Positions 49,203 through 57,652 of a stretch of 64,000 nucleotides of DNA are shown one piece after another (position 1 is the first letter of the stretch; every line of letters starts with the position of its first letter). The position numbers were made by a program, and so were the translations under genes. Source of the stretch: Periplaneta americana (taxonomy: Eukaryota > Arthropoda > Insecta > Blattodea > Blattidae); the NCBI RefSeq assembly GCF_040183065.1, contig NW_027185502.1, positions 3,461,501 to 3,525,500 of the forward strand, in the 5' to 3' direction. The notes below the pieces were generated by a model. The model searched no databases. It saw nothing but the letters and a program-made list of their open reading frames with translations, and was not told the DNA's origin.

Positions 49203-50813
49203 GACACTTGGAAAGAAAAAGAAAAAACATTAAGATAAGAAAACGTAGGAAATCATTTACAATAAAAATTTTGTTGGGTACAAATGATTACTAATTATAG
49301 CTAAGGATGATTTTAACACGTGAGATCCTATGGCATCAATCGTTGCATCAGAAATTTTATATTGTTTAAGTTGATTTAAAGTTTCACGTGGGATCGTGCC
49401 ACGGGCACCGAACATGAGCCCAAAAACTGTCCAATGTGTAATGTGGTATTGTGCTCCAAGATGCTGACAACAAGGCTCATATATGACTTGTTTTTCACGA
49501 CACACCTCTTGTGGCTGTTGCTCATGCATCTCAAAATGGATTGTGGGATCAAGAATGACACCCTTATCCTTCTGCCGATCAATTATGATGATATCAGCCC
49601 GTCTAGTAGAGCCATCAGAAGAGACGCAACCAACCTCCTCATAAACCTCATAGGAAGCATTCTGACAGATTGAAGCTGTGATGAGAGAACGAATCGTATT
49701 ATGTCTGTTGATTCGGAGCAATTCTCCATGATGGCAGAAACCCAAGACGTGAGGAAGTGTTTCTTGCTCGTCGCATCTTCTGCAACGGGTTGAGTCAAGA
49801 GTTCTACCAGGGAGAGTACGTACAGGTATTGTATTACAGTTCATCTTAATGGCTTGCGTCCACTGACTGCTCGAAAGTCCCTTTTTGGTTGAGATCCACG
49901 AATTGCCTTTCTTCCAGTGAGAATAGAAAACAACTCCCAAACCTTTACTTTCAGTTTGCTCCATTGATGAAAAGAATCTTCACGCAATGCTTTTCTTAGT
50001 TTTTGATAAGAAATACGTTGAGAACAATCGAAGGTAATTGGTAATTGTTTGATGCAATGTTCAATTTCGTTTGGAAGATTTCGAGTGGCTGCTACATGAG
50101 GGTTGTCAACGTGTAAAAGTCTTTGACAAATATTTAAGTGCTGAAGGTAAGCTTCCCACTGGGCTTTAAATACTCCTAAACCTCGCAATCTTCTTGGTGC
50201 ATACAACATAGCATCCGGGGTGTCAGTAGAAATGTTAATTATTTCCTTAACAGCGCTGCGAATTTATTTGTCAATATCAGATAGAAATTTCACTTTAAGA
50301 TCTTTTAAAAGAGCACATTGGAAGGGGTAAACCAACTGAGGCCAGATATATTGATTTAATATATTTATCTTTGGGTCAGGCATGAGTAAGGGTGAAGTGA
50401 CCAGCTGATTAAGATTTTTTGTCAGTTTTTCAATTAGTTGCACCGCATTAAATTTTATTTCATCATTAAAAGTAATGCTAAGATATCTTATAACTTCATC
50501 CGATTTGATGCAAGATATTTCTTGTCCATCGATCAAGGTGAGGGAATCAGAGCAGAGACATCCTTTACGTAGGTGTATAACATTACTTTTATGCGGGTTT
50601 ACTTCAAGACCAATTCTAGCTAAGGAATTCATAGTCAGTGATGTTGAATATTGAGCGGCAGATTTATTTTTACACAATAATACTAGATCATCCGCAAATG
50701 CAAGAATGGAATGATTATTTAATTGAGGTGATATATTGTATCCATATTCTCCAGAGATATTACTTTCGCTTAATTCCTTCATCATGAAGTCAATGGCAAC
50801 ATTGAAGCTCCCT
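49203..50813 (-). pseudogene. R2-like LINE: reverse transcriptase and restriction-like endonuclease
   Basis: Minus strand, 5'-truncated inside the reverse transcriptase. ILAFADDLVLL carries the catalytic Asp pair, then NPHKSNVIHL. After an in-frame stop near 50264 comes DTPDAMLYAPRRLRGLGVFK, and after a frameshift near 49950 TKKGLSSSQWTQAIKMNCNT. The C-terminal zinc knuckle is CRRCDEQE ... HVLGFCHH, and the restriction-like nuclease reads RADIIIIDRQKDKG, ILDPTIHFE. The Pro of the usual PD-x-D motif is Ala here. AACAATTTTGT at 49192-49202 and 50814-50824 forms an 11-bp target duplication. R2-group proteins normally target rDNA; this copy sits in a hAT element. Confidence 0.85.
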
Positions 50814-51002
50814 AACAATTTTGTTTACTATTTGTTTACTTACTCTTAGTTAGTTGGTAAAGTGTTTGTGTAGTAAACTTTGCTACATACACAGTTTGAA
50901 AGATTGGTATATTTGGTGGATGTGCATATTAAACTTACTTAGTGATAATTGATAAGTGTCCTGCATTTTTTTTCCAATATGTCTGGGAACCCTAAACAGA
51001 TA

Positions 51003-52794: not shown

Positions 52795-53160
52795 GATTTA
52801 ATAATTCATACTTGGCGAAATAGAAACAAAAATATTATAATCGTGGGTGATATAAATGTAGATTTTTAAAAATTATAATAATAATAATATTACTTGGAAA
52901 TTACAACTAGTATTAAACACACATGGCTTAGAGGCAATAGTAAATGTCCCAACAAGAATAGGAAGCAGCAGTCAATCAGCAGTTGGTCAAATAATACTAA
53001 ACAAGGATTTGTGGAACTACAGTTCTAATGTAATAACAACTGGGTTCTATGATCATGAAGCTCAAATCTTGCAGTTACATCTAGAAGATAGGAATAAAAA
53101 TAACTATAATAGTTCTGCTGTATACAAGAAAGTAAGATCCTTTAAGGAAGAAAATATTCA
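52795..53160 (+). pseudogene. Jockey-like LINE endonuclease fragment
   Basis: Pieces read NIIIVGDINVDF (GD-x-N motif) and, one frame over, LVLNTHGLEAIVNVPTRIGS, SAVGQIILN and VRSFKEENIQ. This is the second half of an apurinic-type endonuclease domain as in Jockey-like LINEs. It ends exactly where the CR1-like LINE begins (53161), so the CR1 copy may have inserted here. Confidence 0.65.
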
Positions 53161-53943
53161 GTGAAGAAGCTACGGGAGAAGCTAGAGACGGTGGAGCAAC
53201 GGATCAAGTTTCTGGAGGACGAAAATATGTTGTTGCGACGGGAAAAGGAAAATGGCGAAGAGAGGGAGGAGAAGAAGAAGCATGGTGCGGCAAGTGTTAT
53301 CATCGGAGACTCCATCATTCGACACGTAGGGAATCTACAACCGGAGCTGGCGACGGAGTGTTACCCTGGGATTAGAGTGAAAGAAATGAAAAGCGTGATC
53401 GAGAATCAGGAACGAGGGGACCCGAAAAACATCGTCCTTCACGTAGGAACAAACGATTTGCGAAGAGGTGTTGATTATATCATGGCAGATGTATATGACT
53501 TGGTGATGGAAACGAAGAAGAAATATCCGGCAGCTGAGATTGTCATCAGTGGAATCGTCAGACGGAGGGATGTGAACTGGAGAAAAGTGGGTCGTGTGAC
53601 TAAAGCTTTCGAGTGGGTAGCGGAGTGTCTTGGTGCGCGTTTCGTCGATCCAAATTCCTGGATAGACGACAGATGCTTCGGAAGAGACAGAATCCACCTA
53701 AATCGGAGGGGAGCTGCAGACATGGGATCCCTCTTCGCGCAGGTAGTTACTACAACATGGCGGGGCGGGATCGAGGATCCAACAGCGGGCAGCGGCACCG
53801 AAGGACCATCAGTGGACGGCGGGGGCGTGGGACTACCAGCGGTCAGCGGGGGTGAGAGTCTACCTGCGGGAGGAGGGGTCGAGGGACTACCAGCGGGCGG
53901 TGCGGTCGAAGACCTATCCGCAGGCAGCGTAGACCTGCAGTGA
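53161..53943 (+). CDS. LINE ORF1: coiled coil plus SGNH hydrolase-like domain
   Basis: Open from the truncated 5' end; the first ATG in frame is 53227, and the true start is missing. A heptad-rich, charged stretch (KLETVEQRIKFLEDENMLLR) precedes an SGNH/GDSL fold: VIIGDSIIRHV (block I Ser), IVLHVGTNDLRRG (GTND, block III Asn), and DRIHLNRRGAADM (block V D-x-x-H). Such esterase-like ORF1 proteins are known from CR1-type LINEs, where they associate with the element's RNA. The C-terminus is a Gly/Ala/Glu-rich run of imperfect 9-11 residue repeats (LPAGGGVEG, LPAGGAVED) encoded by GC-rich DNA, ending VDLQ before UGA. ORF2 follows in the same frame. Confidence 0.85.
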   Translation: MKKLREKLETVEQRIKFLEDENMLLRREKENGEEREEKKKHGAASVIIGDSIIRHVGNLQPELATECYPGIRVKEMKSVIENQERGDPKNIVLHVGTNDLRRGVDYIMADVYDLVMETKKKYPAAEIVISGIVRRRDVNWRKVGRVTKAFEWVAECLGARFVDPNSWIDDRCFGRDRIHLNRRGAADMGSLFAQVVTTTWRGGIEDPTAGSGTEGPSVDGGGVGLPAVSGGESLPAGGGVEGLPAGGAVEDLSAGSVDLQ

Positions 53944-55170
53944 CGGCGAGGTGCCACGGGGATTCAGAATGTACAAGTAAGGACAGGCCTACTAAGACTA
54001 CTGCAGGTTAATTGCCGAAGTATTAGAAATAAACTTATTCCGTTTTGGAACTTGGTCGATGTTTATAATCCAGATATAATAATTGGGACGGAATCATGGC
54101 TTAGGGAAGACATAAATGACTCGGAAATTTTTAGGTCGGATTATAGAGTCTTCAGAAAGGATAGAAGTGAAAAGGGAGGGGGAGTGTTCGTTTGTACTAA
54201 GATAGAAATAAGTAGCAATCTTCTGTGGATACATGAGGAAGTTGAAATATTGAATGTTCAGATAAGAAATGGGCGGGAAACCTTAGATGTAATAGCATGT
54301 TACAGACCACCCAGTGAATTAAACAATTTAACTTTGCACAAACTAAATGAATATCTTAATACAGTATCAGAAGACCGAAACGTAGTAATTGCTGGGGATC
54401 TAAACCTCCCGAAAATTAACTGGAACGGGATTTCAGGTACAAATTCAGATGCACAGACCCTTGTTAATGAATTGATCTGGCTTAAAGATTTCACGCAGGT
54501 AGTAAATGGTCCGACGCGTGACAATGCCCTCTTAGATGTTTACCTACTAAGACCTGTCTCTCTCGTTGTCAACTCTGAAAGTCTTCATAAAATAAGTGAT
54601 CACAATAGCGTCTTATTAGAAATCTTCTGGGAAAACACGGTAAATCCGAGGTCAAGTCCACTGTCTGTCTGGAATTTTAACAAAACCGATGTCCATGAAT
54701 TACAAACATTTCTACGACAAAAGCATGATGACTTTCTAAGGACTGAAGGAAATATGGAAAATGTGTGGCATAAATTTAAGAGTATAATTTTCGAGGCATT
54801 AGTAAAATGTGTACCTTCTAAAATAATTAAGAAAAATCCGGACCCAGAATATTACACTAATTATATTCGCTACTTAAAGAAAAAGACAAGGCGCGCATTT
54901 AGCAAACGTAAACGAAGCCATGAGCATTGGGAAAAATATGTCGAATTAATTAAGAAACTTGAGTGTGAAAAAAGGTTAGCTCAGGAAAATTTTCTAAAAA
55001 CTATTTTAAAAGAAGATGAAAGTAACAATTGGAGACAGTTTTATAATTATGTACGCAGGAGAAAAGGAAAAAACGAAGGAGTAGTGCTTTTACGAAATCA
55101 GAACGGAGAAAGTATAACTGATGACAAAGAAAAGGCCGACTTATTAAATTCCTATTTCATTTCGGTTTTC

Positions 55171-55221
<51 letters not shown>

Positions 55222-56781
55222 CCCTCTGATAGGTGTGGTTGTGTCACAGACCATGAATGTGAACCAAATTCGACTTTCAAAATAACTTCCAAAGGGGTTA
55301 GAGAGAGAATAACGAAATTAAAAAATCGGAAGTCTCGAGGACCAGATAGTATTGCTACAGAGATTCTTAAATTAGGTTCCGAGGCCATAATTCCATACTT
55401 AATGCGTATATTTCATGTTTCCATAAACAATGCAGCTATTCCATGTGACTGGAAATCAGCTATAGTGGTACCCATACATAAAGGTGGAAATAAATTAGAT
55501 GTCGGAAACTACAGACCGATTAGCCTTACATCTGTTGTATGTAAAGTCATGGAGCATTTGATATCGAATTATATTCGTCACGTTCTAAATGCGAAAGACT
55601 GGTTTTACAACCACCAGCATGGTTTTAGGGAAGGCTTCTCATGTGATAGTCAAATTACGTCCCTGGTTCAGGATCTAGCTGAAGAGGTAGATAGAGGCGG
55701 AAGAATTGATGCAGTTGTGATTGATTTTTCGAAAGCATTTGATTTGGTGCCACATGACATATTAATAGATAAGTTAAGTAGGCTAGGAATAGATAAAAGA
55801 GTGGCGCTATGGATTCAAGAATTCTTAAACGGTAGAACCCAGAGAGTTAGAGTAGGTCATGAAATATCGGAAATTGGAAATATAAGTTCAGGGGTGCCAC
55901 AGGGCAGCGTTCTGGGTCCATTACTCTTTATAATATACGTAAATGACCTATGCCAGAATATTACATCAAATATGAGGCTATTTGCAGACGACTGCATTAT
56001 CTATAGAAAGATTAGAAATAATTCAGATGTAGATGCTATTCAAACAGACTTGAATAAAATTTATAACTGGGCGTTAAAGCATAGGATGAAAATAAATGGT
56101 TCTAAAAGTAAATCTACAACATTTTGTAAAACCCGAGAGGAAACTAGTCTTAATTATGAATTCAATGGTGTTGTAATTCCGCAAGTACAATATTATAAAT
56201 ACCTAGGAGTGTATTTAAACTCCAAACTTTCTTGGGGAGAGCATGTTGATAATGTTATGGGTAAAGCATGGAGGGCACTTCACTTTATTATGAGAATCTT
56301 GAGAAAGGCTAGCCCCAAATCGAGGGAAATAGCATATCTAACGTTAGTGCGACCGTTAATGGAATACGGAACTACATGTTGGGATCCCTATAGAATATAC
56401 CAGATAAATTCCTTAGAAAGAATCCAGTATAGGGCAGCGAAATTTGTTAAAGGTAAAAGAGAAGATGGAAATGATACGATAGAAGAACTTAAATGGGAAA
56501 CTTTGGAAAACAGACATAGGAAAACTAGAATAACATCATTGTATAGAGCACATCTAGGTCAGAAAGCATGGGTAGACATAACGGCTCGGTTAGGAAAGCC
56601 AACATACTATGGTAGGAACGATCATGATTTTAAAATCAAATGTAGGAAACAGAAAACGGATGTAGGTAAATTCTCATTTTTAAATAGAACTATAAATGAT
56701 TGGAATGACCTACCTGTAGCGGTCTTCGAGGGCTGTCCTTCCTTAAGGAGATTCAAGAATAATTTAAAAAGTTGTATATAA
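53944..56781 (+). CDS. LINE ORF2: endonuclease and reverse transcriptase (readthrough product?)
   Basis: About 945 codons open directly after the ORF1 UGA, in the same frame. Endonuclease: LLQVNCRSIRN, IIGTESW, IACYRPP, VIAGDLNLPKINW and ISDHNSVLL, with all catalytic blocks present. Reverse transcriptase: KSRGPDSIATEIL, NYRPISLTSVVCKVMEHL, HGFREGFSCDSQ, VVIDFSKAFDLVPHD, GVPQGSVLGPLLF, RLFADDCIIY and YKYLGVYL. C-terminus with RIQYRAAKFV and WNDLPV. No in-frame ATG occurs before 54754, which lies after the endonuclease. A poly-Asn run sits between the domains. The protein looks functional; the clade (CR1/L2-like) is assigned from SGNH ORF1 and RT style. Confidence 0.9.
55172..55221 (+). repeat. 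(AAT)n microsatellite inside LINE ORF2, encoding poly-Asn
   Basis: About 17 in-frame AAT codons between the endonuclease and the reverse transcriptase. The frame is kept, which is consistent with either tolerance or recent expansion. Confidence 0.95.
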
Positions 56782-57652
56782 AGTGAAAATTAAAATTAAG
56801 GTGACATTCAACATTTAATTTTTTTAAGATGACATGTATTTATCTAGGCTGACGAGTTTACTTCCTTGGTTTGAATTGTAAATTATTTAAAACTAGCGTG
56901 TAAGAGGGCCTTAGACTAGAAGAGCCCTATTCATAGACATTCTTAGAGCGGGTTAAATAGCTACTTCCGGTGGATGATCAGCGAACTAACGTTTTTCGTA
57001 TTCATAAACTAGTGTTAGCGATAATACGTGTACTAAGAGGGGTTTGGCTGGCTAAATTTTAGTCCCCGCCGGTAGGGTAGTTTAGAGGCCGACTAGCTTA
57101 GCAAGATGGCTGTTATGATGCAGTGAATGTGGGTTATGTACGTCGAATTCGTGATGTGATATGTAGGAGGAAGACGTACCTACCGAGATTGGACATATTT
57201 AGAAAATATGAAGTACACAACATTAGTCAGGCTTCTGTAAGATGTATAATAACGAATGTGTCAGTAGCAATCACTGGACTTGCGCTTCGTTACGTACGTT
57301 TTCCTAGGGAAGAAAAACGAATAACACTGCGAGAAAGTTTGACGACATCGCAAGATTCCCTTCAGGTAATTATATTTCATGATTTGAATATTGTATGTGA
57401 ATGCTTTCTTAGAGAAATTTGTACTGTACCGGTACCATATTGGTACAGTAGGTCTATTGTGATATTTCATCATTTTTAGGTTATTGGCGCCATAGATGAC
57501 ACGCACATACCCATAACAAATGTAGGAGGAGAACTGTCACAAATATATATCGACCGAAAAGGATGGTATTCTCTATTAAACGTTCAGGTACGTACTGTAA
57601 ATGAAATTACAACCCATAAGAGGTTATGTAGACCAAGGCTGAAATTTTGGTG

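Follow-up and report, generated by a model that had tools for sequence, protein, structure and literature searches.

The means by which a LINE produces the scarce protein of its second open reading frame (ORF2) have been worked out for few elements: ORF2 is reached by reinitiation in SART1, and the same has been proposed in L1. Among other elements, a leaky stop codon stands before the polymerase in the gammaretroviruses and in a few LTR elements (VdLTRE5 and Tca2) (PMC5009743, PMC3441728), and the sequence UGA-CGG, which has been described as a leaky, 'type II' readthrough context, precedes a same-frame polymerase gene in certain RNA viruses (PMC3542737, PMC11166343). The CR1-like LINEs, for their part, are known to combine a PHD finger with an SGNH esterase in ORF1, and in ZfL2-1 and its relatives these are joined by an endonuclease and a reverse transcriptase in ORF2 (PMC3905857, PMC4120745). 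Excerpts of the papers cited are the source for these comparisons.

A LINE in the genome of the cockroach Periplaneta americana resembles each of these systems in part. It shares the domains of both frames with ZfL2-1 and its CR1-like relatives, but its two frames meet at a single in-frame UGA and its ORF2 has no AUG ahead of the endonuclease, a layout that was not found described for those elements in the excerpts of the papers that report them. Like SART1 and L1 it is a LINE that needs an unusual step for ORF2 (PMC5972666); those two elements possess an ORF2 AUG, whereas the cockroach element is without one before its endonuclease. The type II viruses offer the same UGA-CGG ahead of a same-frame polymerase, although local folding found no stable stem-loop after the stop of the cockroach LINE, a sister family lacks the CGG, and readthrough in the LINE is putative. 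The gammaretroviruses, VdLTRE5 and Tca2 likewise place a stop between two frames, but readthrough makes their polymerase and is only proposed here; moreover, they are retroviruses or LTR elements, whereas the cockroach element is a non-LTR one. An old, family-wide arrangement of this kind, with an in-frame stop between ORF1 and ORF2, is real in this CR1-like LINE.

The LINE copy in the window

The window (the whole stretch of 64,000 nucleotides that was analysed) contains one copy of the element, the features of which are collected in Table 1. It is 5'-truncated, falling about 450 nt short of fuller copies by blastn, with the start of ORF1 missing, and its 3' UTR homology stops near 56921 in comparison with all 20 fetched genomic copies, the fuller of which extend about 550 nt more. 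The open frame that holds the remaining part of ORF1 spans 53146-53943 in the list of open reading frames. A first-pass annotation, made from the letters of the window, had described an ORF1 ending in CTG CAG TGA, with the next codon, CGG, opening an ORF2 of about 945 codons without a change of frame, and this proved exact to the base, the count being 945. Its placement of the first in-frame ORF2 ATG after the endonuclease was equally accurate, agreeing both with the sequence and with the ends of the Pfam matches: the endonuclease match, which ends at residue 223, lies entirely upstream of that AUG. In 18 of the 20 copies the first in-frame ATG is the equivalent one, while the remaining two have an earlier stop.

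The SGNH domain claimed for ORF1 is also borne out. The part of ORF1 present in the window matches the GDSL/SGNH family PF13472 with an E-value of 1e-6 (29.8 bits, under the cut-off of 32.9), and the full ORF1 of a fuller copy (L024) reaches 32.1 bits, marginally below that cut-off, and matches chain 4c1b with an E-value of 1.6e-13; 4c1b is the entry for the ZfL2-1 ORF1p esterase (PMC3905857). With the endonuclease and reverse transcriptase of ORF2 (Table 1), this domain make-up is what points to a 'CR1-like' placement. Within ORF2, an AAT microsatellite (window 55174-55221) encodes a run of Asn residues, and the length of ORF2 in copies where it is open varies from 939 to 960 codons, probably by way of that run.

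Table 1. Features of the LINE copy, with positions counted from the first letter of the window
Feature	Position	Strand	Basis
CR1-like LINE copy	53165..56921	+	blastn against 20 fetched genomic copies
ORF1, 3' part: coiled-coil-like region (by eye), SGNH esterase domain and Gly/Pro-rich tail with a final Gln	53165..53940	+	
UGA separating ORF1 and ORF2 within their common frame	53941..53943	+	sequence, ORF list, genomic copies
CGG, the triplet following the stop (context of type II readthrough)	53944..53946	+	window and 20/20 copies
ORF2, 945 codons closed by TAA; first in-frame AUG at codon 271	53944..56781	+	
GGC-GAGGT-GCC hairpin, stability within shuffled range	53945..53955	+	folding
In-frame ACG (GCC ACG G), best candidate for a non-AUG start	53956..53958	+	20/20 copies
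Out-of-frame AUG with a stop three codons on (ATG TAC AAG TAA)	53969..53980	+	window sequence
VNCR motif, start of endonuclease	54007	+	
Endonuclease, Exo_endo_phos_2 (PF14529, E 8e-9), residues 115-223	54286..54612	+	Pfam
First in-frame ATG of ORF2 (codon 271), past the endonuclease	54754..54756	+	window sequence
Reverse transcriptase, RVT_1 (PF00078, E 1.9e-34), residues 512-757	55477..56214	+	Pfam

The stop codon across copies of the family

A search of the genome (3.23 Gb) returned 609 candidate places, of which the best 40 were scored, the window among them; from the other 39 scored places, the 20 ranked most like the window were fetched. In 20 of these 20 copies CAG is followed by TGA CGGCGAGGTGCC (TGA CGGCGAGGTGCCACGGGGATTCAG after CAG in every one), and the triplet after the stop is invariably CGG, so that the comparison of stop and 3' context across genomic copies proposed in the first-pass annotation came out in its favor. 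A junction pattern in which the stop was left free matched 141 places in the genome (reversed control, 0), with TGA in 100 of 100 among the matches listed; when up to three mismatches were allowed, 196 places were returned, and the 100 among the matches listed were all exact and all TGA. Ten further copies, picked from the stop-free pattern matches, also carry TGA, although, having been picked by the junction pattern, they add nothing independent on the letters around the stop. In all 20 fetched main-family copies, the codons leading from the stop to the endonuclease motif include no in-frame AUG. Neither a sense codon in place of the stop, nor an offset between the frames, nor an AUG ahead of the endonuclease, each of which had been named beforehand as speaking against a feature of the family, was found when looked for.

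Four of the 30 fetched copies (L024, L025, L026 and L034) are open in both frames while retaining the UGA, and ORF2 is open for at least 935 codons in 15 of the 30. Divergence from the majority sequence is 0.30-2.45% among 21 aligned copies. The LINE family, which is abundant and has copies open in both frames, is young, and for that reason the uniformity of its UGA reflects ancestry rather than selection on the stop.

A diverged sister family

Older evidence comes from a sister family, sought with a degenerate endonuclease-start pattern that carried AAC in place of the main family's AAT. The pattern matched 42 places (reversed control, 6); 13 were fetched, four (L049, L056, L058 and L059) were dropped as having no junction, being truncated or chance matches, and the ORF1-ORF2 junction was present in the other 9 of 13, all in decayed copies. 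In the least decayed of them (L050), the endonuclease is identical to that of the main family at 126 of 213 residues (59%; dN 0.33); changes affect 109.2 of 135.8 synonymous sites, which is saturation, and the SGNH region is identical at 97 of 143 residues (dN 0.22). The ORF1 tail of the sister family falls 54 codons short of the main family's, and the 15 codons immediately after the stop are weakly conserved between the families (5 of 15 residues: R and QVRT). The comparison with L050 puts the stop itself at one place in both families, 21 codons ahead of VNCR, with no difference of frame. Because its place and frame are the same in the sister, the layout has outlasted the saturation of synonymous sites, with the qualification that only two families are compared, whose frames would coincide by chance one time in three.

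The stop is TGA in seven of the nine sister junctions, TAA in one (L053) and TGG in one (L047). After TGA come AGA (six copies) or AGT (one), and CGG in none of the seven. The leaky UGA-CGG context noted in the window is therefore constant in the main family, which has the UGA followed by CGG or CUA that defines type II readthrough, but it does not extend to the sister family; the position of the stop appears to have persisted while its 3' context changed. An A precedes the sister TGA, so that the seven TGA copies have an out-of-frame AUG overlapping the stop (AUGA); in L050 this AUG opens only a short frame (around position 1434).

These observations bear on two other accounts of the stop. 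According to the first, the TGA would be a recent CGA-to-TGA change (CpG decay) in a single long ORF, as the first-pass annotation allowed, or else a defect private to one copy, as might be imagined of a copy truncated at both ends. The codon is TGA, never CGA, in the 20 fetched copies and in 100 of 100 among the matches listed, and a stop stands at the equivalent place in the sister family; on these grounds recent decay is rejected and a private defect is ruled out with it, leaving this account almost no probability. According to the second, the messenger for ORF2 would lack the stop, through splicing or through editing of UGA to UGG (Trp); with either, the two ORFs would stay in a common frame. 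The TGG of one sister copy in nine is what an edited template would leave, but ordinary mutation explains it equally; no TGG occurs in the 20 fetched main-family copies or in the 100 among the matches listed of 141, and the junction is unspliced in the window and in all 30 fetched copies, the selection of which required at least some junction letters. Removal of the stop from the messenger is accordingly judged highly improbable.

A start codon for ORF2

A more serious alternative to readthrough is a near-cognate ORF2 start after the stop, reached by termination and reinitiation or by internal entry, and most likely at the ACG of Table 1. All 20 fetched copies carry that codon, codon 5 of ORF2, in good context 12 nt past the UGA, and reinitiation is the route described for SART1 and proposed for L1 (PMC5972666). 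When non-AUG initiation, which the first-pass annotation had also considered, is followed into the sister family it loses much of its force: the equivalent codon is GCG in L050, and across the nine sister copies it is ACG in one and GTG in one. Among the in-frame near-cognate codons of the main family, AGG at codon 13 alone recurs in the sister (8 of 9 copies). Furthermore, an out-of-frame AUG 25 nt past the stop (20 of 20 copies) would capture many of the ribosomes scanning beyond the ACG, and separate initiation gives no reason for the frame and the stop position to have been preserved. Taken with these points, such a start is unlikely.

As for conventional AUG starts, the 21 codons that follow the stop are free of in-frame ATGs in all nine sister copies. 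In L050 there is none over 255 codons; in the other eight copies one is found at codons 49-107, and these ATGs appear to lie in, or to have come with, decayed sequence.

Selection on the two frames

Differences among copies of the main family were divided into singletons, which are mostly mutations that followed insertion, and those shared by at least three copies, which arose in active lineages. The ratio of synonymous to nonsynonymous differences is 18:12 for shared and 31:55 for singleton differences in ORF1 (p 0.031), and 18:16 and 68:158, respectively, in ORF2 (p 0.011); for the two frames pooled, p is 3e-4. The copies share ancestry but were treated as independent, and the p-values are therefore indicative. 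They are signs of purifying selection on both sides of the stop.

Probable readthrough of the UGA

Readthrough of the UGA, yielding an ORF1-ORF2 fusion, is the best explanation of the layout and a likely one. ORF1 and ORF2 would constitute one continuous frame, broken by a single old and conserved stop (UGA in the main family), at which most ribosomes would terminate and release the ORF1 protein with its PHD finger, coiled coil and SGNH esterase; a minority would insert an amino acid at the UGA and go on to translate the endonuclease and reverse transcriptase. The outcome would be a fusion protein at a set, minor ratio, much as Gag-Pol is made in some retroviruses. What we infer from the sequence is the passage of ribosomes into ORF2, how often it occurs and what the fusion does. 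If readthrough operates, LINEs and retroviruses would have reached the same solution, which sets the ratio of packaging protein to polymerase, and leaky termination would tether the reverse transcriptase to the ORF1 protein.

RNA structure contributes little to this reading. The GGC-GAGGT-GCC hairpin that the first-pass annotation proposed just after the stop can be drawn (-4 kcal/mol), but 144 of 200 shuffled sequences fold at least as stably, and it is given up here. Local folding of five stretches after the stop revealed no stable structure (z +0.57 to +1.64 relative to shuffles), and the stem-loop about 8 nt past the stop that is a frequent partner of type II readthrough was likewise not found by that means. 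A limited literature search, outside which most subscription journals lie, yielded no description of readthrough in a LINE.

ORF1 in fuller copies

In fuller copies ORF1 is 386 codons long, or 370 in a short-tail subfamily; in the nine copies where a script located the start AUG, position -3 is a purine and position +4 is G. The encoded protein comprises a hydrophobic N-terminus, the peptide GIELNPGP, a PHD finger, a coiled-coil-like stretch (by eye) and the SGNH esterase. The PHD finger of L024 matches PF00628 with an E-value of 1e-6 (29.1 bits, cut-off 24); the window copy itself is without this part. The two subfamilies, represented by L024 (386 codons) and by L025, L026 and L034 (370 codons), differ by 16 codons, in frame, in the Gly/Pro-rich tail.

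GIELNPGP follows the hydrophobic stretch (L024:2739-2762, ORF1 residues 51-58) and is a putative '2A-like' (StopGo) sequence. It is present in nine of the ten copies in which the region is visible in an open frame, the tenth (L018) having NPGS, and in the same nine the sequence has NPG-P with (D/G)xEx upstream. The canonical 2A motif reads D(V/I)ExNPGP; non-LTR elements are known to carry 2A-like sequences, and those at the N-termini of sea urchin NLR proteins can serve as signal sequences (PMC4981915, in excerpt). The cockroach LINE resembles the 2A-bearing non-LTR retrotransposons in having a hydrophobic stretch and then the motif near the N-terminus of ORF1, but it has G where the canonical motif has D; a GxExNPGP form is reported to be active in a picornavirus (PMC6249498, in excerpt). 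If GIELNPGP is active, ORF1 protein would be made both with and without an N-terminal peptide. On balance, we favor the wider view of a LINE lineage without separate ORF2 initiation, in which the endonuclease and reverse transcriptase would be made solely as a readthrough fusion and StopGo would add a second recoding step, giving several proteins per AUG in a set ratio.

Other relatives and neighboring sequence

No relatives were found in viral contigs, and in other genome contigs three pattern matches were obtained, of which none was confirmed. A distant CR1-like family, represented by L014:961-1700, has 3502 candidate places in the cockroach genome, of which the best 40 were scored; many of the matches listed start at one query position, beside a simple repeat, and the ORF1-ORF2 junction was not reached in the upstream stretches of eight places.

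At the 3' break of the window LINE, an open frame and the peptide GAIDDTHI (window 57102-57600) resemble a Harbinger-type transposase; 57102-57476 gave no Pfam match. On the minus strand, window 50264-50824 encodes part of a further reverse transcriptase (PF00078, E 1.1e-8), and just upstream of the LINE a short open frame (52862-53164) looks by eye like part of the endonuclease of another LINE.
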